A stretch of DNA of 32,332 bases. It comes from a virus. Both the position numbers and the translations under genes were made by a program. This document shows, piece by piece, positions 7,419-29,968 of the stretch (its first letter is position 1; each line of letters begins with the position of its first letter). Below the pieces are notes generated by a model. It was not told the DNA's origin. It searched no databases and saw only the letters and a list, made by a program, of their open reading frames with translations. The stretch spans positions 1 to 32,332 of the IMG/VR virus record IMGVR_UViG_3300023301_000059; one strand, given 5' to 3'.

Positions 7419-7454
7419 TAAATATGGGGATTCACTGGGGATGTCTAAAGGACG
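7419..7454 (-). promoter_or_regulatory. Weak copy of the phage late-promoter motif before the lysis cassette
   Basis: On the minus strand CGTCCTTT (7447-7454) matches seven of eight bases of the TGTCCTTT box. The downstream box is poor at the standard N20 spacing (CATATTTA) and only slightly better two bases further on (TATTTACA). It is included because it precedes the lysis genes as the better copies precede other blocks. Confidence 0.35.
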
Positions 7455-7468
7455 AGATGGTATAGCAC

Positions 7469-7978
7469 TTAAAAGAAAAAGCGTCTTATTAAAAAAACAC
7501 CAACAAGCAAAGCAACAAGAATATAAAAGACATACCTGAGGCGGTACGGGTCTTTAGGCGTCTCTTTTGTTTTGATATCCGAAGTAATTTTTTCATCCGA
7601 CTTAAGACTGGCCACGTCAATGGTCTTAACAGTGATTAAAGTGGAATCTGATTTGATGGCCCCTTTTACTGTTTCCGTCTTATCGTCAATATCAAAAATG
7701 GACTCTTTCTTTTTAAAGAATGTGGTAGTTGTGTTTCCAAGGCTGTCGGTAGCGGTAATTGGTTCATACTCGCTTATAGTCACCTTCGTTTTTCTATTGC
7801 GTAATATGCGCAACAACTCTTCTGTATCGCTATAATCATTTGTGATGTGATCTGTTATTTTCTCATTTATCAGAGTCTCCTTTTTGGATGTGTCATACGA
7901 TTCATTTTTCTGCATTTTTACTGGCGCCTTGCAGCCAACAATAAAAATGAGCAAGAATGCAATTAAAGTCTTTTTCAT
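7469..7978 (-). CDS. Lipoprotein with C-terminal membrane anchor, candidate unimolecular spanin
   Basis: 169 residues: a lipoprotein signal with Cys in FIVGCK (~residue 16), a polar, helix-rich periplasmic middle, and a strong C-terminal membrane segment (YVFYILVALLVGVFLI) ending in RRFFF. An outer-membrane lipid anchor plus an inner-membrane helix is the layout of u-spanins such as phage T1 gp11, which fuse inner and outer membranes at lysis. It lies between the tail genes and the lysis cassette. This is inferred from topology only. Confidence 0.65.
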   Translation of the reverse strand: MKKTLIAFLLIFIVGCKAPVKMQKNESYDTSKKETLINEKITDHITNDYSDTEELLRILRNRKTKVTISEYEPITATDSLGNTTTTFFKKKESIFDIDDKTETVKGAIKSDSTLITVKTIDVASLKSDEKITSDIKTKETPKDPYRLRYVFYILVALLVGVFLIRRFFF

Positions 7979-7980
7979 GG

Positions 7981-10143
7981 CTATTTAGATATTAGATCTA
8001 CGGTTGAGTCGCCGATCCCACGTGTCATGTGCACCGGGATTGATATTGATTTGATATAAGAAACCACTCCATCCACCCTTACCGGCTTATAAATTTTATG
8101 GTTCAGGAGGTCTGTGAATTTTAACTTAAAAACCGTTCGTTTTTCGCGGTACTTAAAGGCTTTATGAGTAACAAAGTCATACAATGCACCTTCAAGAATA
8201 CCGGCCTCTTCACGCCACCGGAGCTTTACATTTGGCGTTGGCAGTGACGCCACTGTGTCGAAAGAAGCTGATTTGATATCTCTGTTATCAAAATTGAAAT
8301 ATCCCCCATCTTTTGTGTTGGGGTAGGAAACTTCTTTCTTTTTGCCTCTATAAATAACATAGGCAAAATCAGGCTGTACGTCTTTTGCGTCCATTGATGA
8401 AACAGGTATTTCAAACAAACCTCCACCCATTTGAACCAGGTCGTTGATTGGAATGGAGCCCACCACCGGAATTTCTTCTGTTTCCGAAGAGGCAAAGCCG
8501 GCTTCTAATGCGCCTAAGGCAGAAACTTCACGCCATTCGTAAAAATCGGGGTCTAGTCTAACAAATGGGAAAAAGTCCATATCGTTTTCTTCACGTCTGG
8601 AAGCGATTGTGATAATTCTACTAAATATAGAAAGGCATGAGAGGCGCATAATTAACCGATCATCCCCAGTCAATGTTATCGGCTGTGCCGTTCTAAGGTA
8701 GAATGATTTATACTCATAGGTTGTGTTTTTCACATTCTCAACATGAGTCGCTATTGTGGTGTATTCTCCATCACGGAGAAGGCGAAGTTCTATATGTAAT
8801 TTGGCGTCAGTCGTAGAGCTTGACTTAATCCACGTCGTAAGGCTCATAGTTCTTAATAATTCTCCTTCAAGAACTCTAAATGCATAAGCGTTAATGAGAT
8901 TTGGTTGAATTGAAGAAAAGGTCTGATTTGAATATTCTTGACCTAATTGGCCCGCTAGGGCATCTATTTCATTATATGACACGCCGCCAACAGTGGTTGT
9001 TGTAGTTTTTAAAAACAAGCCATCCGTATCAAAAATGCTCGCTTGTTTGTACAATGGGCCTCTGTCTGGGTTCGCGCTTTTTCTTCTAAAAAAGCGCCTG
9101 TGAGCCGCAGTCTCCTGGAATAACCAAATTTCATCAACTTCATCAGGCGATGCCGTTGAAAAATCGTTAGGATCTGGTAAATTAGCAAGGCTACCGTAGA
9201 CCGTGCGCGCCGGTGGCACGTCATACTGGTCAGGATTTAAAATATCATCATCCTCACCCTTAAAAGAGAGTTTCACCCTTTTGGGATTTAAGCTGTCAAA
9301 ATGTTCTGACCGTACAAATTTATCTGACCAGTCCGTGGGTTCAGCATTAATAATGTTTTTGTACAGAAGCAGTTCAGCCTGATACAAAAACGGGTTAAAA
9401 TAAAGTAATATCCCAAAACTTTGCAGGTCCTTAAGCAAATCAAAAGCCGATATGTGAGGCATCCATGATGCCATGTTTGCATCTCCGTCGCCAAAGTAGG
9501 TTATTCGATTTTTTGCACACCAAATGGATAGCCGGTTAAAATCGCTGAATTCCGCCAAATCATCTTTAGCCAAATCTAATTCAAAAACCTCTATAATTCT
9601 AATTAGAATATGTTTTACATAAGTGGCTGGGCATGGACTCGATATGCTATTATCATCAAAATTGTAGTCGTTATAGAGCCTGTCTTTTGTGGTTATTGGA
9701 GCGGCTACAAAACTAAATGCAGGATAGATAGCATTGAGAGATCCTACAAAATCAGCAGGTCTAAACTCATCCCAAAAATGGCCACCTATTTTGTCATCTA
9801 AAAACGAACTCTTTAAAATAGAGGTGTAACTACTTTTACCCGCTTTCAAATATATTTCTATACCCAGGGCGTTAACTACCTCCACATCTCCCTGCAAAAA
9901 AAGCTCATAGTTTTGGAACAGCTCAAATGAAAAGCTTTTTTTGGTAGAATCTCCATCGCCTGGAAAGTCGAAAATGTGCTTATTATCTTCATACGGAATT
10001 GTCAACGGATAGGAGAAAGTGCCAAAATCAGAAAACAACGGATTGCTAATGATGATATTGAAAGACGTATCAGCAGGCACATACAACTGTCGTTTTACAC
10101 CAGCTCCGGATCCGCTTTTTTTCCAAACAAATATTTGTATCAT
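7981..10143 (-). CDS. Large phage tail protein (tail-tip/baseplate-associated)
   Basis: 720 residues, beta-rich, starting MIQIFVWKKSG and containing a PLTIPYEDN segment early on. The ATG overlaps the upstream tail gene's stop in an ATGA junction (10140-10143). Large beta-rich proteins at this place, after the tape measure and fibre genes, usually form the tail tip or baseplate hub in Bacteroidota siphoviruses. No catalytic motif is seen. The role is inferred from position and composition. Confidence 0.6.
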   Translation of the reverse strand: MIQIFVWKKSGSGAGVKRQLYVPADTSFNIIISNPLFSDFGTFSYPLTIPYEDNKHIFDFPGDGDSTKKSFSFELFQNYELFLQGDVEVVNALGIEIYLKAGKSSYTSILKSSFLDDKIGGHFWDEFRPADFVGSLNAIYPAFSFVAAPITTKDRLYNDYNFDDNSISSPCPATYVKHILIRIIEVFELDLAKDDLAEFSDFNRLSIWCAKNRITYFGDGDANMASWMPHISAFDLLKDLQSFGILLYFNPFLYQAELLLYKNIINAEPTDWSDKFVRSEHFDSLNPKRVKLSFKGEDDDILNPDQYDVPPARTVYGSLANLPDPNDFSTASPDEVDEIWLFQETAAHRRFFRRKSANPDRGPLYKQASIFDTDGLFLKTTTTTVGGVSYNEIDALAGQLGQEYSNQTFSSIQPNLINAYAFRVLEGELLRTMSLTTWIKSSSTTDAKLHIELRLLRDGEYTTIATHVENVKNTTYEYKSFYLRTAQPITLTGDDRLIMRLSCLSIFSRIITIASRREENDMDFFPFVRLDPDFYEWREVSALGALEAGFASSETEEIPVVGSIPINDLVQMGGGLFEIPVSSMDAKDVQPDFAYVIYRGKKKEVSYPNTKDGGYFNFDNRDIKSASFDTVASLPTPNVKLRWREEAGILEGALYDFVTHKAFKYREKRTVFKLKFTDLLNHKIYKPVRVDGVVSYIKSISIPVHMTRGIGDSTVDLISK

Positions 10144-11444: not shown

Positions 11445-11460
11445 AGCTTATATTTTTTCT

Positions 11461-11496
11461 ACAAAATATGAGTTATATAGAAGTGATAAAAGGACA
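11461..11496 (-). promoter_or_regulatory. Candidate phage late promoter driving the tail-tip/spanin block
   Basis: Minus strand: TGTCCTTT (11489-11496), 20 bases, then TATTTTGT (11461-11468), then ATG at 11444, 16 bases later. Box sequence and spacing match four other gaps in the late region. The upstream box overlaps the 3' arm of the terminator at 11485-11527. Confidence 0.6.
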
Positions 11497-11527
11497 GGTA
11501 GTTTACGCGAATGTGTAATACCTGTCC
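11485..11527 (-). terminator. Rho-independent terminator ending the fibre/DGR block
   Basis: On the minus strand GGACAGGTA (11519-11527) pairs with TACCTGTCC (11492-11500), nine perfect base pairs around an 18-base loop, followed by TTTT. It starts within the last codons of the 111-aa gene, whose stop lies in the loop. Confidence 0.65.
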
Positions 11528-11838
11528 ACCTTCAGCACCTTCGCTTCAAATGGCATCATATCAGCATACTTTTCGCACTGACTAATCAGTACATTTGAGC
11601 CGCTAAAAAACACAAAGGAAGTGCCTGGGTCTGTGGAATACTCAAACTGCACGGTCACGCACTTTTCTGCATTTGATTTCTTGTATTTGCTCTCCTTAAT
11701 ACGATATGAGCGCACGACGATTGAAACGTTTAGGATCTTTTCAAGTGTTACTTTTTCGCCTGTAAGTGCACGCTCTTCATCCGCAAAATCAGAGAACTTC
11801 TTTAGCGTTGTGATAATTGTGTCGCAGTTATCTTGCAT
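11503..11838 (-). CDS. Small phage protein (111 aa), possible OB-like fold
   Basis: The product contains a run of beta segments: ILNVSIVVRSYRIKESKYK, CVTVQFEYS, FVFFSGSNVLISQ, and a C-terminal MPFEAKVLKVDRYYTF. Proteins with this pattern recur in Bacteroidota phages. The pattern is compatible with a small OB-type nucleic-acid- or ligand-binding domain, but that is inference. Its start overlaps the upstream gene by 37 bases. It is the last gene of the transcription unit that carries the DGR. Confidence 0.5.
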   Translation of the reverse strand: MQDNCDTIITTLKKFSDFADEERALTGEKVTLEKILNVSIVVRSYRIKESKYKKSNAEKCVTVQFEYSTDPGTSFVFFSGSNVLISQCEKYADMMPFEAKVLKVDRYYTFA

Positions 11839-12116
11839 TCTGCTCTTAAGTTTTGATAGTTAGTGTATTCATTTTCGTATTCAACCGGGTCGGCTGTATG
11901 ATTGTTGATTAGCGCAATCTCATCCTCTAATGAGTAATGTTCAGCAATAAGGCTTCTTATTATTGCCGTTCTGGATGCTTCACCAGTGACAATAATATGT
12001 TTGTATTGAAATAGCGCGCCTTCTTCGGCTGCAAGCTCTTCAATATCAAAATTAAATTGTGTTCGTCCGCCTAGGTCGATGGAACTAGGAGGCCTTTCGT
12101 TTGAATTTGCTTTCAT
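11802..12116 (-). CDS. Small phage protein directly downstream of the DGR reverse transcriptase (104 aa)
   Basis: From ATG 12116 it reads MKANSNERPPSSIDLGGRTQ, then LFQYKHIIVTGEASRTAI, then EDEIALINN and a YTNYQNLR motif near the end. I recall similar small proteins in the fibre region of Bacteroidota phages. It starts 31 bases inside the reverse transcriptase gene. It is not the four-helix Avd accessory protein of classic DGRs, having beta segments and the wrong charge. A role in tail-fibre maturation is conceivable. Confidence 0.55.
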   Translation of the reverse strand: MKANSNERPPSSIDLGGRTQFNFDIEELAAEEGALFQYKHIIVTGEASRTAIIRSLIAEHYSLEDEIALINNHTADPVEYENEYTNYQNLRAECKITATQLSQR

Positions 12117-13071
12117 AGTCTTGTAGATATTTTTGACGTAAATTATAACAGTTTGCATGCTTGCACCATCCATAATAGGACGCGCCGGTTGTCGGCTTAA
12201 TGTTTTTCCGGACCGCTCTTTTCATCGCTTTAGCAATCCTTTTTCGTAGCAATATGTGCGTATGGAAAAACCGGTATCCTAAAAAATCAATCCCGCGAAT
12301 AGACACTGGGAATACCTGATAATTTGATTTTACATCAAGATTTAAGTTGCTGTTTAAATAGTTTTCAATCACCTTAAAAACGGTATGTAAATGCTCTTTG
12401 CTATAATGGAGGATAACAATATCATCGCAATAGCGGTGATAGTATTTGAGAGATAAAACCTCTTTGCAGTAATGGTCAAAATATGCAAGGTAAACGTTAG
12501 ACAGGTATTGACTAAGATAGTTACCAATTGGCACTCCTTTCGTGCTGTCTATTATCTCATCGAGCAGCCATAGCAGCGATGCATCTTTGATTTTCTTGCG
12601 CACAACATCTTTTAAGATGGCATTATCAATAGACGGATAGAACTTTTTAATGTCGAGCTTAAGACAATATTGAGTCTCAGGAATATTCTCCAGATCAATT
12701 TTTAAGCGCTTAAGGCCCGTATGGATACCACGGCCCTTAATGCTACTATAGGTATTCTCAATTAGAATAGACTGCCAGATAGGCTCAACAACTTGCATTA
12801 TGGCATGATGAATTATTCTGTCAGGATAATAAGGGAGTTTATAAATCTCCCTATCCTTGCCGCTGCATCGCTTGTGCATGATCTCATAAGGTGCGTTTTT
12901 GAATGTTTTATCAACAAGCATGTTGTGGATGTTGCCAATATAAGTATCAGTATCAGAGTTAACCATTTTTACTTCCTTGTAGAAAGTCTTTCCTTTTTGC
13001 GCATTAACATGCGCAAGTCGGATATTGTCCTTGTCGACAATTTTTTCAAATAAATTTCCCAATCTCTTCAT
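12085..13071 (-). CDS. DGR reverse transcriptase
   Basis: 328 residues with reverse transcriptase blocks in order: LKLDIKKFYPSI (~137-148), the DGR-type IGNYLSQ box (182-188) in place of the QG box of group II intron enzymes, and catalytic YCDD (214-217). IDFLGYRF follows, and there is no maturase or endonuclease domain. It should copy the template RNA made from 13173-13304 with errors at adenines, giving cDNA that replaces the variable repeat. The order target gene, template, reverse transcriptase on one strand is the standard DGR layout. The start is 102 bases after the template. Confidence 0.95.
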   Translation of the reverse strand: MKRLGNLFEKIVDKDNIRLAHVNAQKGKTFYKEVKMVNSDTDTYIGNIHNMLVDKTFKNAPYEIMHKRCSGKDREIYKLPYYPDRIIHHAIMQVVEPIWQSILIENTYSSIKGRGIHTGLKRLKIDLENIPETQYCLKLDIKKFYPSIDNAILKDVVRKKIKDASLLWLLDEIIDSTKGVPIGNYLSQYLSNVYLAYFDHYCKEVLSLKYYHRYCDDIVILHYSKEHLHTVFKVIENYLNSNLNLDVKSNYQVFPVSIRGIDFLGYRFFHTHILLRKRIAKAMKRAVRKNIKPTTGASYYGWCKHANCYNLRQKYLQDYESKFKRKAS

Positions 13072-13149
13072 TTTTGCTTAGGCCTTGCAGAGTTTTCGCC
13101 GAGACTACCAACACCGCAGTTTACTGTTATTTATTTTGCCAAGAGGCAG

Positions 13150-13318
13150 CGCCGACCTGATGACCTGAAAAAAGCTTAGCTGCGCCCCGATATTCCAATT
13201 CGCATTCGTCGAGTCGTTATTCGCATTCAGCGCCGCGACGCCTGCATTCGCACCATTATTCAAATTGCCACCTGCGAAGCAGACACGCCAGCCAACGGAA
13301 TATCGGATCAGGTCGGCG
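13150..13318. repeat. Perfect 12-bp inverted repeat enclosing the DGR template
   Basis: CGCCGACCTGAT at 13150-13161 is the exact reverse complement of ATCAGGTCGGCG at 13307-13318. The arms sit 11 bases and 2 bases outside the template repeat. A second GACCTGA at 13162-13168 offers an alternative, shorter pairing. In the template RNA the arms would form a GC-rich stem closing both ends of the template. Confidence 0.85.
13173..13304 (-). repeat. DGR template repeat (TR)
   Basis: 132 bp aligned without gaps to the variable repeat at 13369-13500. There are 21 differences, every one at an adenine of the minus-strand template (30 adenines, 9 unchanged). Read in the target's frame, the template has ten Asn codons (nine AAT, one AAC), at which the variable repeat encodes H, S, Y, Y, R, D, L, F, D and S. 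The AAY pattern allows wide diversity without stop codons. It lies between the target gene and the reverse transcriptase. The last five bases at the 3' end (13173-13177) are the least certain. Confidence 0.95.
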
Positions 13319-13347
13319 TTTTGTTAATTATCGTTAATTTCTTTTTA

Positions 13348-13384
13348 GGGGCCCCGCGATGCGTTAATAGCAAAGCCGCGCCCC
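13348..13384 (-). other. Possible stem at the 3' end of the variable repeat
   Basis: GGGG (13348-13351) can pair with CCCC (13381-13384), and CGCG (13355-13358) with CGCG (13377-13380), with a three-base bulge and an 18-base loop containing the stop codon. In the Bordetella phage DGR a hairpin just after the variable repeat helps mark the target. This structure is less regular and only suggestive. Confidence 0.3.
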
Positions 13385-16300
13385 GATACTCCAATCCGCA
13401 AACGTCGAGTCGAGATCCGCACGCAGCGCCGCGACGCCCGCATACGCACCATAAGACAAATGGCCACCCGCGAAGCAGACACGCCAGCCAACGGAAGACC
13501 AAGCGTAATCCGTATAATAAGTAACGGTTGAAGCCCCCCCCGTCGCAGGGACTATTGCTCCAGCTATTGAATGTATAGTTTTGAGGTATGAATTTGACGG
13601 AAGTGCAACGCCTAAATCATCATAGCCTGCGGGCGTATCGGATGCCAAAACAGCTTTATTATTCGTCACATACACATTCCGCTCGTTAACATTGATACCA
13701 TCCACACAAGTCCACAGGTGGCCATAAAAATTTTCTATCCCGCGATAACTCATTGCAACTGTCTTATGCTCACCCCAGCTTGCGGAATTAACTATGTCGG
13801 CATCATACCAATCATTAGCAACAACGCTTACGCTTTGATTCCCGGCATGCAAAGTTCTTCCACCTCTCCGGCGCCATGCGGAGCTATTCGCCCCTTCGGT
13901 AAAGGCTTGGAGCCTGTGTTGTGAAAAAAGGTCAGCATATTCGGTGTAAAATAATAGCTGGAGAGCTGAGCGGTACCAGAACATCTCTAATTGCCATCCC
14001 GCCCCCCTGTTTTGCGCCTGCCCCCTAAAGGTAGGAAGATTGGTTGAGTTGGCTGGTATTGAATTGGGCAGAGATGCCAGCGTGCCCCCAATATTGATTG
14101 CTTCCAATCTGGAAACATATATAGCGTCAACCTGCGAGCCGGTGCCATCCACAAATGCGGGATGTACCGTGAATCCGTCATATGGATACATTGACAGGCC
14201 AATTCTTACTTTTGAGCGGCCCGATATGCCGGTGGGAGAAGGTTCATAAGTCTGGAAAAAGTAAAATTTTGGGATCTTGACCATAACCTGTCCATCGTCT
14301 CCATCGAAGCGAGCTGTGCAAATCTCAAAAGAGTCGCCAATCTCAAAAATGTTAGAGGAGGGGGATCCTGTGCGCGGGTCGCTAATAACAAGTGTGTCAT
14401 TATTTGTCTTTCCTGTGATTAGTGCGTACCTGCTTGTTTTGCTTAATGTGGTGTTGTGGGCATAGCGGCCTACATAGTCATCTTCGACGCCGGCAAATAA
14501 GCCCGTGCAATTGAGGACCGTCCTCCCATCCGCGGTTACAACATCCATCACTGTCGGTGCGACTCCTGACCTGTTATAGTTATTGTAAGGGTCAAGATCG
14601 TAATTTTCAGTGCCGCTGTCAAGCAGCATCACGCTCTTCATTTTATTGTGCACAAACAAGAGGTGATCCGGCACGTTAGAAAGCGGGCGGGTGTTAATAT
14701 TGTAGCCATTATCCCCATAAGCACCGCCACCTGCGTAGCCGGAGAGTGACCCAATTCGCAAGCATCCGGGATTCACGCGCCCTTCATCCCACTCAACGCC
14801 ATACCATCCGAGGTCAAGACCGTCGGGAGAAGGTAGTCCAGGGTAATAGTTTGCTACCACCTGCCGGATAGTGTCCTCAGTCCACTTTTTTGGCACCGGA
14901 TCATCATCATGCACAGGAGTGAAGGGCCCGGATGCACCACCCTTCAGGATAACTTCACTCTTGTATACAAGGTTGCTTTCTTCCCTAATTATCTTGTACC
15001 AATAATCGGTCCCATCGTACCAAAATTCTATTGCATTACGTGAGTTATTAATGTTATTCCATCCCATTGAGTCCGGGGCGGTTTTGAATATTGAGCTGAA
15101 GCCTGGCACGTGCAATTCGGTTCCATCTGCATTCATTACAACCATGCACCTTGCACCAGCTACGGCCGTGGCTGTAATAGGGATAAAAACACGTTCCTCA
15201 TCTGATGCCGTAATCGGCATTGATGTCATTATCGAGGTGAATGGGATATTAACGGAAAAATCAACATGCTGGCTTCTTGTTTCGTTAACAGCCTGCTCAA
15301 CTGTTTTTCCGTCGGACATTGTAATGTCGGTAGCAGTGTGCTGGTGTCCCGCATCTGCTTTATTGCCTAACTCGGCAAAAACTCCTCCAGAGCTTACGGC
15401 ATTCGGGCTATCATTAGTTGGCACAGCGTCAATAGTTATAGATGCGGCATGACTCCCAGAATCTACCCAATCGCCACCTTCGACATCCCAAACCCAAAAA
15501 GTATCAGTTTCACCAACTAAAGAAAACCAACCTTCTTCGCCAACAGGGTGCGCGGCTCTTAACAGTGCTTCTGTTACAAAAAACTGTTTGTCGTTAGTAT
15601 TGCCGCCGCCTACTCCGAACGGCTGTATTTTATAATCGGCAGGGGTGAACCCTGAGCCGGTCTTGACGATAAAAGATGGTTCTGTAATTGTAATATAGAA
15701 TTGAATCTGGGTGGCATCTAACATGCCTACCATCCCGGGCACTAATACGATGAGGCAATCATCGCGGTAAGGAAGGTAGAAGTCATTCTCTATTTTTTGC
15801 GAATCAACGACATCAATAAGATTACTCCCATTGAATCTTGACTGGTGGATCCAACTACCTATGCTGCCATCGTTTGGTTTGATGCCTGTTTCAGCGTTTT
15901 CAGTGAAACGATACCAATATTTTACGCTGGTAACTATTACTGAGTCACCAGTTTTCATCCCCTCTATTGCCTTTAGCTCGGCTAATGAGGCAACTACACC
16001 TGTTGATGTGTTGCGCGAAGAGATAGTAACGCCTTCTCCCTTATTTTCCCATTTTAGAGGATGAGACTCCGGGCTTTCACCTATTTCGGCATTTTGGATA
16101 CATAAATAAACCTGAACCTCATGAAAATCAGGGTTGGCAGAAGACTCATTGACGTATGTAACAAAGTTCTTTCCGGCATAATAAGCAAAGCCGTTTGAAT
16201 CGTTAGGGCGCATGGCGTCATAAAGTGCCGTGTTTTCTACGTCTACAATTTCACTCCTAGCGCCAAAAGACTTAACCTCTGTGCCGTTGTTGTAATACCA

Positions 16301-17395: not shown

Positions 17396-17431
17396 CAAAA
17401 ATATGGGATGCCTGCCTACTCAGAAAGGACA
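17396..17431 (-). promoter_or_regulatory. Candidate phage late promoter driving the fibre/DGR block
   Basis: Minus strand: TGTCCTTT (17424-17431), 20 bases, TATTTTTG (17396-17403), then ATG at 17380, 15 bases on. The downstream box also fits the Bacteroidota -7 consensus TAnnTTTG. Confidence 0.6.
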
Positions 17432-17441: not shown

Positions 17442-20438
17442 TCATGTTCCCACATCCGAGAGTATGGTATTCATTTTATCGCGACTTCTACGGTCATAAT
17501 CAAAATCCCAAACGCCTTTAACGCCATCATGATATAGCTTTTCCATGAGATCAGTATTACGACGCAGCAAAACCTCCATGTCGGGAGAGGCGGACGATTG
17601 AGGTTGCGATGGTGTTATAGTTGGAACAGTCTCAGAGGTATATCCGCCCGACTTTCGTCCGGCCGAGTTGCCGGCTCCAATCACACGCGCTAAATCAATG
17701 GTATTAATGGTTCCATTCTTTTGCGATGCATCAATAATGTCCGTCACCATTTTTACTGACGGATTGCGAACGCCATTAGCGTTCACAATAAACTCATTGG
17801 CATGGTGCCAGCCGGTAACCGTATCATCTGAAGATGAAGCGCCGGAATAGCCACCCTCTTTCTTGCCCTCCATGGGTTTTGTGGCATTTTTTATAGAATT
17901 GATAAAAGCGCCGGTCTGCGCAATAAAACCAGCAATTAACGGAATGTTTTGAGGAAACCCGACCGCCGCCGTTTTAGCCTTACCAAGTCCCAAAGCCATT
18001 GTAGCCTCAGCCAATGCGGCACCTTGCTTAACAATTAGTAAAGCCTTTGTCATTTGACCTTCCTCATTCATCACAGAAGCAATGCCGCCCAACACATCCT
18101 GTGCCACTTGCAACTGCCCAAGCCTTAAGCCCTGCTCTTTTTTAAATATATCCTGTTTGTTTTTCAGGTTCTCACTTTCGAGCTTTTTAACTTCTTTTTG
18201 ATTTGACAGCTCAATGCGTAGAAGTTCTGTTTTATTATTTGAGAATTGTTCCTGTTCAAGTGCATAACGCTCATTTTGCAGCTGCATTTGCATTTGAAAC
18301 CGCTCGTCCTCTAAGGCCAATTGTTCCTCAAAAGAAAGTGCATCCGTTTCAATACCCAATTGTCGCAGTTCCTCCTCATATTCCCGTTGAATCAATAACC
18401 TCTCTCTATCCTCACGCTCCATGAGCTGCATAATGGCCATGCGAGCCTCTTTGTACTGCTGATCGCTAATTATGCGCTCATCGTAATATTGCTTAAGCAG
18501 CTCAATGCTTTTTGCATGCGTCGTTACCTCCTCAACCATGCCATACTTAGCCTGAATGTCTCTATAATTACCCCACTTTTGAGTGAAATCATTGAGCATT
18601 TTGTCCAGACTCTTATCCATAGCCTCCAGGCTGCGCTCATATTCTTTTTCAAACTTGTCGGTATTGAGAGGCTTCAACTCTTTAGGCTTTTCACCGTTGG
18701 CGCCACCACCGCCATCAGGGGGTGGTGGATTAGTCCCACTTTCTCCAATTTCAAGGTTTAACCAATCCTGAGCCTCCTGCATTTCCTGACGGATTCGCTT
18801 AACTGTTGATTCACTTTCGCCGAGATAGCCTCTAATGAGAGCAATTGTTTGAGTATAATCTTCGCCAGAGGTGGTAGCATAACCATACTGGCCACCACCC
18901 TGGGTGGTAAGGTTGTTAAGTTGCACACCTAGTTCTCTAACAGCTGAGGCCTGCTCTAAGATACCCATTCCGCTTTCTTGAATAAGTCTTATTTCTTCCC
19001 CCATGCCATTGGCATTCTCATTGATTAATTCAGAGATGCGGTCACGTAATCTCATTTGAGCCGCATAAAACTTTTCATAATCTCCGGCTTGTTTTGTAAG
19101 CGCCTTTGTCATTTCCTCCTCACGAGCAGCAAGAAAAATACGCTGAATTATAGTGTTATTATATTTTTCAAGAGCCTCACGCGTGCGATCCGTAGCACGC
19201 CCCTCATCATCAAGGGATGCAACAACATTTGGTGCAATTGCCTGTAACTCGTTGATTATTTTTTTACGTTGTTCACTCTCAAGGTTGTGCTCATACAATG
19301 CAGTCGTCAGGCTATTGACACGGCTTTGTTGGTTTTCAAGCTGCTCAATCTGTGATACCTGAAAGTAAGCTACCACGTTCTCTTTCATCTGTCTCCATCC
19401 AGCTGCAATATCTTTTTGCAACCTTAGCAACTTATTACCCTCAGAGTTATAGGCCGCCTGTGCATCAGCCGATTTACGCTGAATAAGCTCCAGCGTTACC
19501 ATGGCCTCCACCTGCGCCTTAGTGGCATTGGTAGTTTTCTCCTTTTCCTTAACCAGGTCTCTGAATTCCTCACTATCCTTTCTGATGGCAATACCAAGTT
19601 GTTTCAACTGCTCATTTTCGCCCAACATGGCTTTTGTGAGAATCTCTGACACCTGAGCCGCACCATGCTGGCCACCGGTCCATTCATCCAATGCACCTGA
19701 CAGGCCTTGCAATTCGGTTGACATTTCAGCGGCTTCCTGACGGGTAAAATTTAAAGGGATTAACAAGTCACCCGTTGCCGTAGCCGCAGCAATAAACTCG
19801 CGCCGGGTAGCTCCCATTTTGCCGGCCAGTTCACCAGCTCTTTGCGACACATAATCCAGAGAGTCACCAAATACCTGTGAGCTACGAATAGAATCAGCCT
19901 CCATGACTTTAGTGAGGTTGAACAGCTCACCCACAAGGTTTTTAGCACCCATAAGCAAGCCGGCAATACCAGCCACAGGCAATAAAGACCGTAACGCCCC
20001 CATGGCCTGACCGGTACGCTTAGCGGCACCACGTACTTGATTCATGCGGCGGCTTACCTGCCCCAATTCATTCTGATACTTTTTCCATTCCGCAGTATGG
20101 GGCACCGTGCTATCCATGGCCTGTTTAAGCCGTGAGTACTCTTTACGTAATTCCTTAGACGTCATGGCATTTAAGCCCAATTGTTTTCGGGCCTTACTCA
20201 TAGCCGACTCGTTGTCCTTTATGGTAGCGTTGTTTGATTTAATCTGTGCCTGTAGCTGCTTGTATTCAGCTGTGTTCTTTTTGCCCGCAGCCTCCATTTT
20301 CTGGAGCTCTACGCGCAAATCTTTATTGGCATCCTTAAGCCCCTTAGTAGTTTGCTGAAGCTTGTTTAGCTCACTGCGCGCCTTATTGCCATTAATGTCA
20401 ATCTTGAGGCTAAGCGTATCGTCCGAGAGTTGTCCCAT
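17442..20438 (-). CDS. Tail tape-measure protein
   Basis: From ATG 20438 (MGQLSDDTLSLKIDINGN) the product is 998 residues. Long N-terminal coiled-coil segments (~20-130) are followed by a hydrophobic stretch (LLPVAGIAGLLMGAKNLV), more helical heptads up to ~residue 760, then a Gly-rich region. The C-terminus has GWHHANEFIVNANGVRNP, typical of Bacteroidota tape-measure proteins. This protein sets tail length and passes through the membrane during DNA entry. Length, composition and position before the fibre genes agree. Its own promoter-like motif precedes it. Confidence 0.9.
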   Translation of the reverse strand: MGQLSDDTLSLKIDINGNKARSELNKLQQTTKGLKDANKDLRVELQKMEAAGKKNTAEYKQLQAQIKSNNATIKDNESAMSKARKQLGLNAMTSKELRKEYSRLKQAMDSTVPHTAEWKKYQNELGQVSRRMNQVRGAAKRTGQAMGALRSLLPVAGIAGLLMGAKNLVGELFNLTKVMEADSIRSSQVFGDSLDYVSQRAGELAGKMGATRREFIAAATATGDLLIPLNFTRQEAAEMSTELQGLSGALDEWTGGQHGAAQVSEILTKAMLGENEQLKQLGIAIRKDSEEFRDLVKEKEKTTNATKAQVEAMVTLELIQRKSADAQAAYNSEGNKLLRLQKDIAAGWRQMKENVVAYFQVSQIEQLENQQSRVNSLTTALYEHNLESEQRKKIINELQAIAPNVVASLDDEGRATDRTREALEKYNNTIIQRIFLAAREEEMTKALTKQAGDYEKFYAAQMRLRDRISELINENANGMGEEIRLIQESGMGILEQASAVRELGVQLNNLTTQGGGQYGYATTSGEDYTQTIALIRGYLGESESTVKRIRQEMQEAQDWLNLEIGESGTNPPPPDGGGGANGEKPKELKPLNTDKFEKEYERSLEAMDKSLDKMLNDFTQKWGNYRDIQAKYGMVEEVTTHAKSIELLKQYYDERIISDQQYKEARMAIMQLMEREDRERLLIQREYEEELRQLGIETDALSFEEQLALEDERFQMQMQLQNERYALEQEQFSNNKTELLRIELSNQKEVKKLESENLKNKQDIFKKEQGLRLGQLQVAQDVLGGIASVMNEEGQMTKALLIVKQGAALAEATMALGLGKAKTAAVGFPQNIPLIAGFIAQTGAFINSIKNATKPMEGKKEGGYSGASSSDDTVTGWHHANEFIVNANGVRNPSVKMVTDIIDASQKNGTINTIDLARVIGAGNSAGRKSGGYTSETVPTITPSQPQSSASPDMEVLLRRNTDLMEKLYHDGVKGVWDFDYDRRSRDKMNTILSDVGT

Positions 20439-20453: not shown

Positions 20454-20489
20454 GGAAAGTATTTGAATCAATCAGGCTGTAAAAGGACA
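20454..20489 (-). promoter_or_regulatory. Candidate phage late promoter driving the tape-measure gene
   Basis: Minus strand: TGTCCTTT (20482-20489) directly after the upstream gene's stop, 20 bases, TACTTTCC (20454-20461), then ATG at 20438, 15 bases on. Confidence 0.6.
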
Positions 20490-23915: not shown

Positions 23916-25403
23916 TTAGTTTGAAGTGTTTTCCAATCTGTCATCACTACTAATTTCCTTTTGACGCTCAGGAATGCGGCGGAAGGTGCCCAGTTTAACC
24001 CGGTCACGCTCCAATTGCGGAAAGTTGATGTACAAAGCCCGGTTTAAGTCGCGCAGGGCAAAGTATTCAGCATAATTGAGTGAGTTGAGATATATAATGT
24101 AATTGTAATACGACTGAGAGCCGCTACCCTGGAACATCCCTTTGCCCGTCACGTTGCTGATAGATGGGTCCAGCCCCTTACCTTCCAGAATAACCTCAAC
24201 CGCCCGCTTGTCAAAATCAATAATACTTGAAATAAACTCCTTGTACTTGGTAGGTATTTCCTTAAATTCCCATTCCTCAATGCCATATTCAGTCCTGAAC
24301 TTACGAGAATAAAAAGCCTTTCCTTGATTCTCACCTGCACCCGAAAGCACCTCGGTGAGTTCGTTCAACTTAATATCAATCAGTTTCTGCACCATTGAAA
24401 AGTCAAACACAGTACCAATATCCTTCAATCCTTCATACTCCGTAATAAGTGGTTTACCTGCCTGATCGCGCTCTTGGTTAGTATCGCAAACCTTCTTAAT
24501 AGTAGCCTCTTTGTTCGAAATCCACTTATCCGGAATAAGCACATGCAGTTTAGCGTTGAGGCTATTTCTTAAATAACTATTGATGTATTTAGGGTTGATA
24601 TTTGAGCCTTTAATCCATTCTTTTAGTCCAAAATAGAAAGTAGGGAAGGAGTAAATACTGTCCCCAAAACTCATGTCAGATACATAACTGATAGCCACAT
24701 TGTGCTTAAGCGGATCCCGCTTATCCAGAAGCGGAAAAACCTCCATGCGGTCTTTAAACGGCAAATCCCAACGACCAACCATGGCATGCGTAAAATCCTT
24801 ACGCTCATAAAACTCACTCACATCCCTAACACCCGGCACTGCAAACCGAAAGCGGGTAGAAGGTATGTGCTCCAAGCCCAACACCGGTAATTGTCCGGAA
24901 CTTCGACTACTCAACCTGCGCGCGCGGGTATAAAGCCACTTTGTGGGGATGCCTTCGGTGTAGTAATATTCAGTCATCGACTGAATAATGTATTCTTCCA
25001 CACTGTTTTCAATGCCCATACGCTCCCAGCTGTCGAGCCACTCAAACACCTGCGGATACAAGGCCGAAACCGGAATGCGCTTAATGCCATCCTCCGATTC
25101 TTCCTCGCGGAACAAAAACGCCCCCTGGCCATACAGCATGCGCACCTGTTTTTTTAGTATCTCAGGCAAAATATGATTATTGCGGATGAGCGTTTGAACC
25201 TCATTAGGCAACCGGTTATCGGCCCCATACGTGGCCACCGTATGGTCGCCAAAAGTGAAATAATCACCATGCAGTTGAAAGGCATTGTATTTTGCCTTAT
25301 CCTCTTCAATGGAAACCGTGTCGGTTGCTGCTATCATTTCAAATGATAGCACCGCTGAGCTATTGCGATCGACGGTGCCAAATCTTCCGTATCGTTGTAT
25401 CAT
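23916..25403 (-). CDS. Portal protein
   Basis: 495 residues. The N-terminal part has DNRLPNEVQTLIRNNHILPEILKKQVRMLYGQGAF, a typical portal clip/stem lead-in for Bacteroidota phages. The middle carries helical stretches around GSNINPKYINSYLRNSL, and the C-terminus is polar (ISSDDRLENTSN). Twelve copies would form the ring through which DNA enters the head, docked by the terminase encoded just upstream. Its ATG overlaps the stop of the 103-aa gene (25400-25403). Confidence 0.75.
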   Translation of the reverse strand: MIQRYGRFGTVDRNSSAVLSFEMIAATDTVSIEEDKAKYNAFQLHGDYFTFGDHTVATYGADNRLPNEVQTLIRNNHILPEILKKQVRMLYGQGAFLFREEESEDGIKRIPVSALYPQVFEWLDSWERMGIENSVEEYIIQSMTEYYYTEGIPTKWLYTRARRLSSRSSGQLPVLGLEHIPSTRFRFAVPGVRDVSEFYERKDFTHAMVGRWDLPFKDRMEVFPLLDKRDPLKHNVAISYVSDMSFGDSIYSFPTFYFGLKEWIKGSNINPKYINSYLRNSLNAKLHVLIPDKWISNKEATIKKVCDTNQERDQAGKPLITEYEGLKDIGTVFDFSMVQKLIDIKLNELTEVLSGAGENQGKAFYSRKFRTEYGIEEWEFKEIPTKYKEFISSIIDFDKRAVEVILEGKGLDPSISNVTGKGMFQGSGSQSYYNYIIYLNSLNYAEYFALRDLNRALYINFPQLERDRVKLGTFRRIPERQKEISSDDRLENTSN

Positions 25404-25711
25404 TGCTTAAACCAATTTACTTTCATAAGATTAAAATGTGGGGGAAAACCAACAAAGCGCACCAGTTTTTTGTAGCAAGTGCGAGGCTCTTTGGTATCTA
25501 AATCCATGTATGGTAGGTACAAATCAGATGGATGGAAGTAAGTATCGTCAGGCAAAGAAGGCCTCAACCGACAGCGGGTAACTACCCGCAGCCCCTTGGT
25601 TTCGTTAGTGGCCGCATTGTAAGTGAGATGATGTAATTCAAAGTGTAAATGCTCCTTGTGTCGCAGCTCGCGCATTCTGGCTATAGCCTCAGTACCCGTT
25701 ATATCTTCCAT
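25400..25711 (-). CDS. Small phage protein preceding the portal gene (103 aa)
   Basis: It begins MEDITGTEAIARMRELR, followed by a beta-rich middle (HFELHHLTYNAATNETKGL, VVTRCRLRP) and YLPYMDL. It is the first gene of the transcription unit that starts at the candidate promoter 25731-25766, and is translationally coupled to the portal gene. No family is recognised. Confidence 0.55.
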   Translation of the reverse strand: MEDITGTEAIARMRELRHKEHLHFELHHLTYNAATNETKGLRVVTRCRLRPSLPDDTYFHPSDLYLPYMDLDTKEPRTCYKKLVRFVGFPPHFNLMKVNWFKQ

Positions 25712-25730
25712 ATATCAAAAATTGATATAA

Positions 25731-25766
25731 CGAAAGTCGGAAAGCAAAAGCACGGATGAAAGGACA
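25731..25766 (-). promoter_or_regulatory. Candidate phage late promoter driving the portal/connector block
   Basis: Minus strand: TGTCCTTT (25759-25766), 20 bases, GACTTTCG (25731-25738), then ATG at 25711, 19 bases on. Confidence 0.6.
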
Positions 25767-25772
25767 AAGCAA

Positions 25773-27500
25773 TTACAGGCCTTCGTAATCCTGCGTCTCC
25801 TCATCACCCGTTGGTAGATACTTTTCATACAAACCAAAAACCAAATAAGTAAGTGCTGAAGGTATTTGAGGCGAATACCATGCCTGATCGGGAAAATCCA
25901 GTTTTTTCTCCGCACTCTTATCCATTTCTATACGGTTATCATCCGTTTTTTTGCGCGGCGTCATGTAAATAGAAGATATCAGCTCTTCACACTCGTATTG
26001 GCAAACCCTCAGAGATGGCACACGCACCTCCCGTTCGCTAAGGATGCGACTGAATAACAAAAAGTGCTGCCAATGAAAGATCGTTCGCTGATCGCGGCTC
26101 ATAAGATGCACGGTCCACCCCAAATCCTCCAGTTCAGTTTTCATGATAGTGGCATCCGTGTCGCCTTTCGGATTCTTGCGATATCTCTCTTTACGCTGGT
26201 TTCCGGCACGGTCGTAATGCAAATAAATAGTGCGCCGGGTATGGTATTCGAAAAAAGAATCTATTTTTTTAGCCAGCTCATGGTGCTCTTCCGGCAAATA
26301 CACATACATGTTTTTAAACACACGCAGCTCTTTATTCGTTTCCTGAGCAAACACCGCACTGCTAAAGCCACCCGGGTCGAACCCCATCAAAAGCGGCTTA
26401 TTGGTGTCGCAATACTTCAGATCGCGGCTGGTCTTTTTATAAGTGCCATCCACCGCATGTAAATCAATGCTATTGTATTTATAACTATCCTCAAAAATGT
26501 GGCGGGCCGCAAACTTGGCAAAAAACCGATCCTTAACCTCCTTAGGTCGGATGCCCAGTATCGATAATTTGAACTTATCAATGTTATGCCGGCTACCCTT
26601 GTACTGATTTTTCATGTAGTCAAGCCCCAGAATCACCATATTGGTAAAACTTGTACCCTTCAGATAGAGCGTGGTGCCTTTCCGCTTTTCGTTTAGCTGA
26701 CTTTCCCATTTATGAGCAAAGCGCATGGATTTTTCTATATCCCTATCCATTTTTTTAATCAGAAACAGCGTGTTTTTACCCGTAATGCTCTCTTTTTCGC
26801 GTCGCAGCTGCTCAGCCTGAGCCAATTTAACACTAACCCGGTAGGCCACATAGATAATTTCCTCAATTAAATCTTTATCCTGATTTTCTTCCCATTTTAA
26901 CCACCAATCGTGGTCATTTTCGAAATTAGGCGTAGATGAAAAGCCCGTAATGCCACCAAAATAGTGCGAATTCCCAAATATTTGACGGTTCCCACGCTGC
27001 GCAGGCATCAGCCGCTCAGTAAAATTGGTCTCACTTATCCTTAGCAGCTCGTCAACAAATATATGCGCCATGTTTTGACCAACACCCGACGTGTTAGGAC
27101 GGTCAACCCCCACAAATTTGGCCACAGTGCCCCACACCGTACTTATTGTATGCTTCCATTCCGGCACCTCAGCCAGTGGCCGCTTAAAATGCTTCGGCGG
27201 CTGTTTGCCGTACTCAAAGTGAATGCCCCGCTTGTAGTAAATATTAAGGAATTCAAGAATACCCGGCACTATCGTGTCAATAACAAAGGAGTAAGACGGA
27301 CCAGCAATGGCAACCGTAGAGCGGGGCATGGCCGCGCATACCCGCACAAAGCGATTGCCCATAATGTGCGTTGTCTTACCCGATCCCCGGCCAATTTCGC
27401 CAAACATGTTTTGAGGATCGGCCAGCAGCGCACGTGTTTGCAAAACCGTGTGGTATTTTTGCTCCATCTGCTGAACAGTAGTGTCGTGCTTACTCATCAT
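25773..27500 (-). CDS. terL: Terminase large subunit
   Basis: 575 residues. The ATPase has Walker A GRGSGKTT (37-44) and Walker B HIFVDE (146-151). The C-terminal RNase H-like nuclease begins at LLMGFDPGGFSS (~370), whose Asp is a metal ligand, with further acidic residues near the C-terminus. It cuts and pumps phage DNA into the prohead through the portal. The start overlaps the small-terminase candidate by 11 bases. A second Met follows immediately, so 27500 or 27497 is possible. Confidence 0.93.
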   Translation of the reverse strand: MMSKHDTTVQQMEQKYHTVLQTRALLADPQNMFGEIGRGSGKTTHIMGNRFVRVCAAMPRSTVAIAGPSYSFVIDTIVPGILEFLNIYYKRGIHFEYGKQPPKHFKRPLAEVPEWKHTISTVWGTVAKFVGVDRPNTSGVGQNMAHIFVDELLRISETNFTERLMPAQRGNRQIFGNSHYFGGITGFSSTPNFENDHDWWLKWEENQDKDLIEEIIYVAYRVSVKLAQAEQLRREKESITGKNTLFLIKKMDRDIEKSMRFAHKWESQLNEKRKGTTLYLKGTSFTNMVILGLDYMKNQYKGSRHNIDKFKLSILGIRPKEVKDRFFAKFAARHIFEDSYKYNSIDLHAVDGTYKKTSRDLKYCDTNKPLLMGFDPGGFSSAVFAQETNKELRVFKNMYVYLPEEHHELAKKIDSFFEYHTRRTIYLHYDRAGNQRKERYRKNPKGDTDATIMKTELEDLGWTVHLMSRDQRTIFHWQHFLLFSRILSEREVRVPSLRVCQYECEELISSIYMTPRKKTDDNRIEMDKSAEKKLDFPDQAWYSPQIPSALTYLVFGLYEKYLPTGDEETQDYEGL

Positions 27501-28125
27501 CTACATTTTCGTAATCAATATCCTCTACAATATTCAGCGCACCGGCAGCATCGCGCAGCGCCGTGTTTTTATCGCGGCTGTCAATTGGCAAATGGTTAAT
27601 AAAAGTCTGCGTATCCTTCCACAATGTGCTTAAATTGAACTCTTTTAAGCCCAGAAGCTCAGGCTTGACCTCGGGTGACACCAAAAACGTATGCGGTTTA
27701 ATTTCTTCCGGGTTAATGGCAATGGTAGAAGCCTCCATTCGAAAGTCCTTAGCCCGCTCCATGTTTCGGCGTGCCTCCGTCAGGTTGTTTTTGGCAATGG
27801 CCAGTTTAGAGAGATCCTCCAGGCGGTCGGCATAATAATTACACCACGCCTCAGCCTTAACCGAGCTGTTTAAGTGAAAATAGTTGATGGCATCATAGAT
27901 GCGTGTTTTGGCAGTAGTAAGCGTCAAGTTGGGAAAGGTCTGACGCAACAACTGAGCCGCCCTATTAATATTGTGCTCATTCTCAGCCGTGCGAATTTCC
28001 ACAGCCCTGTCCAACTCCCTAATGTACTGTTTCAAATCCTCCTTTAACGCCATGCTTTCTCCCGTACTTCTAAAGTCCTGAAGTATTTCAACAGGGAGCG
28101 TCTGCAATTCATTAAAATAGCTCAT
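27490..28125 (-). CDS. Candidate terminase small subunit
   Basis: 211 residues, helical and charged, located directly before terL with overlap. The N-terminal half contains LRQTFPNLTLTTAKTRIYDAINYF, which could be a DNA-binding helical motif. The middle is a long charged helix (LSKLAIAKNNLTEARRNMERAK) suited to oligomerisation, and the C-terminus is acidic (IDYENVDDE). Small terminases recognise phage DNA and regulate terL. The call rests mainly on position and composition. Confidence 0.6.
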   Translation of the reverse strand: MSYFNELQTLPVEILQDFRSTGESMALKEDLKQYIRELDRAVEIRTAENEHNINRAAQLLRQTFPNLTLTTAKTRIYDAINYFHLNSSVKAEAWCNYYADRLEDLSKLAIAKNNLTEARRNMERAKDFRMEASTIAINPEEIKPHTFLVSPEVKPELLGLKEFNLSTLWKDTQTFINHLPIDSRDKNTALRDAAGALNIVEDIDYENVDDE

Positions 28126-28415
28126 ACGCCAAATAGGTTTTTGCGTAGTTCGATGTAATCCCGATCATCCGTGTACTGTAATTTAGCCTTTTGGGTCTCA
28201 ATTTCGGCCAATTTAAACTGTTCAGCATCCAACCTGTAGCGCCCGGCATTAAAGCCCTCATTGTACATGATAAAGGCCGGCGACTCCGGGTCCTTCAAAT
28301 CATGCTCCAAAGAGGGTGGCGCATCATCCCCCAAAATGTACATAATCCTGGCAAGAGGATACTGCAAAGCCCCAAACGACTTGATTTTTTTTAATAATTC
28401 AACAGAATAACTCAT
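28122..28415 (-). CDS. Small phage protein of the packaging block (97 aa)
   Basis: It starts MSYSVELLKKIKSFGALQYPLARIMYILGDD, with an amphipathic helix, then a SPAFIMYNEGFNAGRYRLD segment and a helical C-terminus. Its ends overlap both neighbours by four bases (28122-28125 and 28412-28415). It may belong to the packaging machinery, but no family is recognised. Confidence 0.55.
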   Translation of the reverse strand: MSYSVELLKKIKSFGALQYPLARIMYILGDDAPPSLEHDLKDPESPAFIMYNEGFNAGRYRLDAEQFKLAEIETQKAKLQYTDDRDYIELRKNLFGV

Positions 28416-29161
28416 TCAGAAAAAAGCTTTTTAACCAATAATTCACCTTTAATAAAAAGTTGCTTCGGCTCCTGCTCAATGCGCTCCATAAAATCATGCT
28501 TAGCCTGTTGGCTGCTGAAAGTGATAGTAACGTAAGTGTCCACTTCGTTTTTAGCCTGTCCTTTTTTAGTATCCTTAACGGCCTGTATGCGCTCCTCTTT
28601 GGCTTCGGGCGTTACTTCCTCTTTTTTTTGCTCCTTGATTGATTCAAAATCAGAAATAGCACTCTCAACAAAATCGTTGGTAATATTGTCCAGATCCATA
28701 TTGATACCAAACATCTCCAAGTCCTCATCCTTAATGCCCGCAATATCAAAATCGAGCGTGGGCATAGTGTCGGATGAAAGAATCTCATTCATTTTGCCGA
28801 TATCATAATCACCCATTAAACGGGGATTGTTGAAAGCTATATTCAGCTCAATTTCTTCTTTGAGAGGGATATCCAGCACCACAACAGTCAATTTGTAATC
28901 GCGGTTACCGGCCCCATTCTTACGCTCCCACTCTTCGTCCATAATTCGCAGGCGCTGATGACCGCCAACAAGTGTACCGGTTTGCTTATTCCAGATGAGA
29001 GGTTCCCGCAGGTGTATTTTCTTAAGCGAGCGCTTAAGATCCTTATAATTCTGATCATTAATAACCCGGGGGTTGTACACCGCTTCATTAATCAGGCTGC
29101 GGTGAATATTGTCCACCACATAGTCCTGTAAAAAATGCAAATTATCTATTTCGTTGCTCAT
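28412..29161 (-). CDS. ParB-like nuclease-domain protein (IbrB-like)
   Basis: 249 residues from ATG 29161; an in-frame ATG at 29173 is an alternative start. The N-terminal ParB/Spo0J-type domain has YNPRVINDQNYKDLKRSL, LREPLIWNK and LVGGHQRLRIM, the usual GGHQRL box. Then comes a helical middle and a C-terminal KEEVTPEAKEER coiled segment. Phage proteins of this type commonly pair with a PAPS-reductase-family gene, as in the IbrA/IbrB pair. The start lies inside that gene here. The likely action is on DNA, as regulation or modification, but its target is unknown. Confidence 0.8.
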   Translation of the reverse strand: MSNEIDNLHFLQDYVVDNIHRSLINEAVYNPRVINDQNYKDLKRSLKKIHLREPLIWNKQTGTLVGGHQRLRIMDEEWERKNGAGNRDYKLTVVVLDIPLKEEIELNIAFNNPRLMGDYDIGKMNEILSSDTMPTLDFDIAGIKDEDLEMFGINMDLDNITNDFVESAISDFESIKEQKKEEVTPEAKEERIQAVKDTKKGQAKNEVDTYVTITFSSQQAKHDFMERIEQEPKQLFIKGELLVKKLFSE

Positions 29162-29825
29162 AATCGTATTCATATAAGATTTGACGGGATAGCGGAAATA
29201 TGTTGAAAATCTTTTCTAAATCATCAGGGAAGAACTCTCTCAGATACAGAAAAACGTCAATATTAAGATCGAGGCCATTGCTATTTTTGGCCCCATATTC
29301 AATAGGTTTGATAATGTTGTTGATTTGGATGTATGATTTAACCTGGCGCTTGGTCCACAAGGCAAGCGGGTATATTTTCTTGCCCTTATCATTGATACAA
29401 TCAAATTTGTAGGTTGAAAGCATTATTCGACGGTTCATGCTGTCGGCTTTTTTGTGCCCAAAAACAATCCAGTCGCAACCCGATATCTCCCTGGCTTTAC
29501 CTTCAATATCCGCCTGTTTTAAGGCTTTGATGCTTCGGCCGGGGGTTGGAATACTGAAGTAATTGTGTTTGATGTAATAGGATACCATCCAATGCGGTAA
29601 CTGGTGGAGCGTGGCATTTGGGTATCGCTTAACCCATTCCAAAAAAAAGTTAAGATGCCTTAGATTCTTTACAAAATACATGAAAAAGCAATGTACTTTA
29701 AAGTGTGGTGCCAGTAAATCCAGCAGCACCAAGCTGTCTTTTCCACCTGAATAAAACAGAACAACCTCCGGGGTTTGCTCCCGGAGGTGTTTTAACGCAA
29801 TTGCTGCATGCTTAGTGGGATTCAT
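29142..29825 (-). CDS. Phosphoadenosine phosphosulfate reductase family protein (IbrA-like)
   Basis: 227 residues with the adenine-nucleotide alpha-hydrolase P-loop SGGKDS (26-31) in VVLFYSGGKDSLVLLDLL. Further PAPS-reductase-like segments are HLNFFLEWVKRYPN, WIVFGHKKADSMNRR and YPLALWTKRQVKSYI. It lacks the C-terminal Cys motif of metabolic sulfate reducers, so it is a phage-type relative, as in IbrA and DndC-like proteins. It overlaps the ParB-like gene. GGAGG at 29829-29833 is a rare clear Shine-Dalgarno here, three bases from the ATG. Confidence 0.85.
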   Translation of the reverse strand: MNPTKHAAIALKHLREQTPEVVLFYSGGKDSLVLLDLLAPHFKVHCFFMYFVKNLRHLNFFLEWVKRYPNATLHQLPHWMVSYYIKHNYFSIPTPGRSIKALKQADIEGKAREISGCDWIVFGHKKADSMNRRIMLSTYKFDCINDKGKKIYPLALWTKRQVKSYIQINNIIKPIEYGAKNSNGLDLNIDVFLYLREFFPDDLEKIFNIFPLSRQILYEYDYEQRNR

Positions 29826-29887
29826 TATCCTCCAAGCGAAAAAGAACCGCCGGTCATTGTAAAACCTCTGTTACCTGAACGTAGCAT
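29825..29887 (-). CDS. Possible 20-residue leader peptide before the PAPS-reductase gene
   Basis: ATG at 29887 opens a 20-codon frame ending GGSFSLGG, whose TAA overlaps the next gene's ATG (TAATG). It sits between the candidate promoter at 29933-29968 and the PAPS-reductase gene, and its last codons include that gene's Shine-Dalgarno. It is glycine-rich. The junction suggests translational coupling, but such a short frame can arise by chance. Confidence 0.35.
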   Translation of the reverse strand: MLRSGNRGFTMTGGSFSLGG

Positions 29888-29932
29888 AACTTTAAATTTT
29901 AAGTGAAACAAAAAGAATTCAATTAATAATAT

Positions 29933-29968
29933 CGAAGTTAAGCAGTAGCCCAGTGTCCGGAAAGGACA
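29933..29968 (-). promoter_or_regulatory. Candidate phage late promoter driving the packaging block
   Basis: Minus strand: TGTCCTTT (29961-29968), 20 bases, TAACTTCG (29933-29940). The first box is half of the small palindrome TGTCC-GGAAA-GGACA (29954-29968), and it adjoins the terminator at 29974-29995. Confidence 0.6.

Follow-up and report, generated by a model that had tools for sequence, protein, structure and literature searches.

The question raised by the IMG/VR virus record IMGVR_UViG_3300023301_000059, which was analyzed at its full length of 32,332 bases (hereafter, the window), is by what signal its late gene blocks are started. A preliminary description of this DNA had pointed to the octamer TGTCCTTT, lying on the minus strand in five gaps between gene blocks and followed, after a 20-base spacer, by a second box, as a candidate phage-specific late promoter, and had added a weaker sixth site ahead of the lysis genes. 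The analysis presented here indicates that these sites are very probably phage-specific late promoters, composed of a host-type -7 box and a GTC element placed on the -33 region, and probably read by a phage-encoded factor. Promoter function, late timing and reading by a phage protein are three separate steps, each of which we infer from the sequence observations given below.

Paired elements in the gaps of the window

All five octamers, with their 20-base spacers and second boxes, were found where the preliminary description had placed them (Table 1), and in four cases the second box indeed ends 15-19 nt ahead of the ATG. The sixth site was recovered as well, and both its CGTCCTTT element and CAnnTTTG boxes are known from relatives. 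The five gap copies are all on the coding strand; three extra copies of TGTCCTTT (at 6622, 20213, and 28557) are on the plus strand, within genes. In total, the octamer occurs eight times in the window, compared with 1.39 expected, and none of 100 shuffled sequences reached this number. Six copies (including the plus-strand copy at 20213) are accompanied by an A-containing box at N20, whereas sequences resampled with the Markov-1 model gave a mean of 0.14 and a maximum of 2 in 400 trials. When the whole pattern was searched with three mismatches allowed, 17 matches were obtained in the window against 14.5, which is the chance level; the signal therefore consists of the exact octamer together with the fixed spacing, and looser motif claims within the window were given up.

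Conservation in relatives and the clade-wide rule

Relatives of the window were retrieved by their TerL proteins, not by the motif. In the two loci L007 and L008 (TerL 74% and 70% identical, respectively), TGTCCTTT occurs exactly four times each; every copy has the coding orientation, sits in a late-gene gap, and has a box at N20. Loci L009-L015 likewise carry it. Across the eight paired sites of the window and L007/L008, all 64 octamer bases (64/64) are identical, compared with 47/160 in the spacer and 44/64 in the -7 box; the spacers between octamer and box are thus near random. The preliminary description would have been refuted by a lack of the motif in the corresponding gaps of related phages, but the motif is present there: the portal/neck site is kept after TerL in L007, L008, L009, L010, L015, and a Porphyromonas phage, the tape measure gap has the octamer also in L007, L008, Porphyromonas phage026a, and BT-TP2, and the fibre/diversity-generating retroelement (DGR) gap (17424-17431 site) has it also in L007 and L008. 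In the packaging block, L008 has the octamer in the same gap, and the gene that follows is homologous to the first gene of the window's block (46% identical); in L007 it is found at a slightly shifted gene junction, ahead of TerS.

An unbiased test was performed on 85 non-redundant loci, which were retrieved through portal or family B proteins (the latter described below) and not through the motif. In these loci, the coding strand has 174 occurrences of the pattern GTC[CT]TT[CT]-N20-TAnnTTTG and the opposite strand has 4, whereas each of the other spacings between 10 and 30 bases gave 0-5 matches for the same heptamer and -7 box, and four control patterns were flat over the spacings. A distance of exactly 27 nt from GTC to TAnnTT(T/C)G was counted 109 times, versus 2-18 for other distances. 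The great majority of the sites (155/174) are outside open reading frames, and the median distance from the box end to the next ATG is 20 nt. Whole-record counts for 50 records gave 112 matches to the forward pattern versus 1 to the reversed control; many of these records had been picked through one match, and only the excess counts. The spaced motif is therefore present clade-wide: the named phages that have it infect Porphyromonas gingivalis, Bacteroides (BT-TP2), and Cellulophaga (Ingeline), and it was found also in Bacteroidales prophages, including those of Bacteroides and Prevotella. The TAnnTTTG box is strong across the clade and degenerate at some sites of the window.

Lineage variants of the element

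The most frequent heptamers found at N20 by an unbiased count were GTCTTTT (32), GTCCTTT (23), and GTCCTTC (8), all on the coding strand only. The motif seemed to be missing from Flavobacterium phages 6H and laban6-1 until inspection of their gaps exposed variant elements: in laban6-1 it is TGTCACAA, found on the coding strand at G+27 in 5/5 sites, and in 6H it is TGTCTTAA (4/4 sites), of which three are at G+26, i.e., one base closer, and one is at G+27. As both phages keep GTC and lose TTT, it is GTC, not TTT, that forms the constant part. Of the octamer first proposed, the TGTC or GTC core has held, while the 3' half depends on the lineage (CTTT, TTTT, CTTC, ACAA, or TTAA) and is not constant. 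The variable positions agree within a genome at 0.63, versus a mean of 0.36 and a maximum of 0.52 in 2000 shuffles, and this within-genome likeness favours a phage-encoded reader. Many Prevotella phages have GTCTTTT and GTCCTTT mixed.

Register of the element and proposed mechanism

The consensus of sigma(ABfr) promoters consists of a TAnnTTTG -7 box and a TTTG at -33 (PMC7366714). At the clade's sites without GTC, TTTG is located 18-20 bases (mostly 19-20) ahead of the -7 box, which places the TTT of TGTCCTTT in the -33 register. At the five strong sites of the window the TTT is in this register and the G is absent in 5/5 (TTTT or TTTC). The earlier statement that the -33 TTG is off its usual distance was thus mistaken, since the TTT does sit there and the G alone is lost. 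Similarly, of the suggested phage activator or altered RNA polymerase, the former may stand, as a factor acting at the -33 region would suffice, and the latter is not required, because at -7 the sites have the usual TAnnTTTG of the host.

According to the mechanism that we propose, region 2 of the host sigma(ABfr) would read the -7 box as normal. The asymmetric TGTC-CTTT element lies on and just upstream of -33, with the start of GTC rigidly 27 bases before the -7 box. A phage protein, made before the late phase, would bind this GTC element as one unit, assisting or replacing sigma region 4 at -33, and the host RNA polymerase would then start each of the late blocks, i.e., packaging, portal/neck, tape measure, fibre/DGR, tail tip, and probably lysis.

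Candidates for the phage-encoded reader

The protein families common to the clade are mostly structural, and the near-universal non-structural one is family B, a conserved, uncharacterised protein of about 160 aa, for which comparisons with Pfam and PHROG gave no convincing match. In most of the B-containing loci examined, the first GTC promoter follows its gene at a distance of 400-620 nt, a single small gene intervening, and in 89/99 family B loci a GTC box (looser box criteria) is found 250-800 bases past B. Among near-full genomes, family B was clear in 14/21 and only the MT835559 record was without any match; its remote homologues were recognized in 6H and laban6-1, with weaker matches in G007, G032, Ingeline, and G044. 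In a search of genome contigs, the family B query was successful, whereas the first TerL query gave no match. The AlphaFold2 model of this protein (pLDDT 90) has helices at 79-108, 112-123, and 130-150, modelled with high confidence, forming a C-terminal helix-turn-helix (HTH)-like unit, and a basic tail; residues ~93-149 gave weak matches (Z 3-4.7) to homeodomain/Myb-like three-helix DNA-binding domains. No clear relative of family B emerged from the fold comparisons; sigma region 4, MotA, and Mor/C folds were not among its fold matches, which excludes nothing.

Several points weigh against the proposed promoters and their reading by family B. Some -7 boxes are poor, namely TATTTTGT in the window and TTCCTTAG in L009, L011, L012, and L014. 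The Foldseek E values of family B were >=3 and its VIA Z score was 4.7 at most, its only ties to the motif are position and fold resemblance, and no column of its alignment clearly separates the box variants, a comparison confounded by phylogeny. Moreover, some Muribaculaceae-type prophages have a GTC box before a gene of ~970 aa upstream of B, and therefore some use of the element may predate the late phase, in which case B would need self-feedback.

Such boxes were observed in L256, L258, L262, L292, L296, L297, and L300, about 3.6-7.5 kb upstream of family B. Their variant matches that of the late boxes, and the switch may thus also govern a replication-type gene in these prophages.

As residue-box covariation is lacking, the fold matches are weak and GTC boxes occur upstream of B, family B is a candidate, not a result: on its position and modelled fold it is the leading one for the late-promoter reader, and a guess that we would place short of an even chance. 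The window is probably incomplete (see below) and its family B gene would lie beyond it. We put forward, no less tentatively, an undescribed switch spanning a large clade of Bacteroidota siphophages, in which the single-copy family B, unrelated in sequence to known activators, would appropriate the sigma(ABfr) polymerase at TGTC-NNNN replacing -33, with a specificity drifting by lineage.

The strongest rival competes with the family B part alone. It accepts the promoter class as real and assigns its reading to another phage protein, for example family A or one of the small early proteins that diverge rapidly; to this we give close to an even chance. Family A comprises LuxR-type HTH proteins that carry a cysteine motif and are encoded in the early region of 6H, laban6-1, Ingeline, and others, and the GTC boxes upstream of B would also suit another reader; however, family A was found in just 10/25 of the genomes or fragments compared. 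Examples are located in L137 (44905-45462, minus strand), L139 (15323-15928, plus strand), and L140 (41889-42461, minus strand). As it is missing from many motif-positive genomes, including the Porphyromonas and BT-TP2 phages, family A was downgraded as the reader. The small gene that in most loci separates family B from the first late promoter, referred to as gene X, diverges fast and is probably beta-rich (e.g., L010 3691-4074 and L014 1711-2097, both plus strand). Gene X was dropped as the reader, since it looks like a beta-rich structural protein, which is a sequence impression only.

Host-side explanations

Two further explanations dispense with a phage protein. The pattern GTCYTTT-N20-TAnnTTTG and its reversed control were counted in eight host genomes of 2.4-7 Mb. 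In the genomes with a clear cluster, the matches gather in a prophage, and otherwise they are about as frequent as those of the reversed control; none of the eight genomes showed a host regulon with the motif. The motif is thus phage-specific rather than a host consensus, and in host chromosomes it is essentially confined to prophages.

The first of these explanations, that the sites are ordinary host promoters in which GTCYTTT is a favoured sigma(ABfr) -33 element acting with no phage factor, agrees with the TTT on the position of the -33 TTTG, with the GTCTTTTG variant, which includes the full TTTG, and with the host-type -7 box. We consider it improbable: apart from the confinement to prophages, laban6-1 and 6H retain GTC without TTT, and the spacer is fixed at 20, whereas it is of variable length in the host motif of B. 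thetaiotaomicron (PMC7366714) and N18-20 at the clade's non-GTC sites. Reading of the GTC element by a host-encoded alternative sigma factor or activator seems more improbable still. A single core motif does serve phages of many hosts, and Bacteroidota are rich in extracytoplasmic function (ECF) sigma factors (PMC7366714), but no host regulon was seen in the eight genomes, the 3' half of the element tracks the phage lineage, and the -7 box remains of the housekeeping type. Finally, it is very improbable that the octamer is not a promoter but belongs to a signal for termination, RNA processing, or packaging located between transcription units, because, although terminator-like hairpins adjoin several copies, many copies are without an adjacent hairpin, and the exact N20 coupling to TAnnTTTG, the strand bias, and the median of 20 nt to the ATG speak against it.

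Features of the window

The window codes for an amidase endolysin, a DGR reverse transcriptase, a tail protein, a tape measure protein, an integrase, and PAPS-reductase-like and ParB-like proteins; its portal, TerL, and TerS were named via homology to annotated relatives. The window showed no capsid, head protease, or primase, all of which were found in relatives, and the record is therefore probably incomplete. A megablast search of the window against phages gave no match.

Table 1. Putative promoter elements and adjoining signals in the window
Feature	Position	Strand	Remarks
TGTCCTTT element	29961..29968	-	heads packaging block: PAPS-reductase-like, ParB-like, 97 aa, TerS-like, TerL
-7 box TAACTTCG	29933..29940	-	N20 from 29961-29968 octamer
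TGTCCTTT element	25759..25766	-	heads portal/neck block: 103 aa, portal 23916-25403, subsequent genes
-7 box GACTTTCG	25731..25738	-	N20 from 25759-25766 octamer
TGTCCTTT element	20482..20489	-	heads tape measure gene
-7 box TACTTTCC	20454..20461	-	N20 from 20482-20489 octamer
TGTCCTTT element	17424..17431	-	heads block of 304-aa gene, tail fibre, DGR
-7 box TATTTTTG	17396..17403	-	perfect TAnnTTTG; N20 from 17424-17431 octamer
TGTCCTTT element	11489..11496	-	heads tail tip block: 434 aa, 720 aa, 169 aa
-7 box TATTTTGT	11461..11468	-	weak match; N20 from 11489-11496 octamer
CGTCCTTT, probable sixth element	7447..7454	-	upstream of lysis genes (amidase 5721-6365)
-7-like box CATATTTA, sixth site	7419..7426	-	poor (4/6 positions); spacing correct
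Terminator of preceding unit, GC-rich hairpin and T run	29969..29994	-	recognized by eye; adjoins the 29968 promoter
Host-type promoter TTTG-N19-TATATTTG	32139..32169	-	ahead of the 32091-30000 operon; contrast case

A terminator-like sequence adjoins the promoter also in L008, L014, and BT-TP2. The operon at 32091-30000 had been described as early and driven by an ordinary host promoter; the canonical promoter was confirmed (TTTG at 32169-32166, N19, and the -7 box at 32146-32139, a register as in the clade's non-GTC promoters), and the label "early" was not retained, as nothing shows early timing.

Other features of the window were also recorded. The DGR (12085-13071 and 13170-13496) comprises a reverse transcriptase and a pair of 131-nt repeats; the repeat copies (13170-13300 and 13366-13496) are 85% identical, and the second lies at the 3' end of a gene encoding a 1030-aa tail protein. 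A pair of 44-base G/C-rich terminator-like repeats (31228-31271 and 31595-31638), 89% identical, is located between small genes. An open-ended reading frame (1-1302, minus strand, at least 434 aa) contains four tandem repeats of ~111 aa, with a DNA spacing of 333/333/339 bp, and is without a significant Pfam family.

Significance and comparison with known systems

The human gut and mouth harbour Bacteroidota phages in abundance. Judging from the sequences compared, TGTC(CTTT) most likely marks the starts of late blocks in a large virus family of gut, mouth, and aquatic Bacteroidota. Through the motif, late transcription units can be annotated directly in hundreds of contigs and their start sites predicted closely. 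Bacteroides genetics would gain promoters that depend on a phage, and the late switch could be identified experimentally, while the GTC core with its drifting 3' half forms a natural series for studies of activator-site co-evolution. In the open-access papers searched (subscription papers being outside the scope), we saw no description of this motif, of late promoters, or of late regulators for Bacteroidota phages, and in the hankyphage study the passages retrieved on promoters and activators describe none for late genes; the novelty of the motif and of the late promoters is therefore likely, not established.

Among the closest known systems are those of Duneviridae and related siphophages (6H, laban6-1, Ingeline, the P. 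gingivalis phages, and BT-TP2), which have the same promoter architecture and whose portal, TerL, tape measure, and most head genes are common to the window or its relatives. What sets the window apart is its DGR and its probably incomplete record, and 6H and laban6-1 differ in the 3' half of the element. With housekeeping sigma(ABfr) promoters, the sites share the TAnnTTTG -7 box and the TTT at the -33 register (PMC7366714), but differ in the added GTC, the spacer fixed at 20, the usual loss of the G of TTTG, and the restriction to one phage clade.

In phage Mu, a set of late blocks (lys, I, P, and mom) is turned on by the activator C, whose site is located at -35 or upstream of it (PMC4461284), and here, too, one phage activator is proposed for several late blocks. 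However, C is a dimer with a site upstream of -35 and acts with non-consensus host elements, whereas the element described here is a single unpaired half: no second half-site or inverted partner was seen in the flank base frequencies of the 174 sites. By analogy, the mechanism would be less like that of Mu C than like that of the T4 middle promoters (MotA/AsiA), in which a short asymmetric phage element likewise replaces -35 and the host -10/-7 is kept at a fixed distance, the MotA box, whose distance is nearly fixed, being occupied by a monomer (PMC2988021). The two differ in sequence, host, and -10/-7 type, and in the genes served, here structural and lysis genes; the present element, moreover, overlaps -33, where contact with sigma may be retained. 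The Pfam/PHROG matches of the proteins scanned included neither a MotA nor an AsiA family, and the resemblance to the T4 MotA promoters is most likely one of mechanism, without evidence of kinship. A phage element replacing -35 is of a known kind, while this class of promoters, its hosts, and the candidate reader appear to be new.

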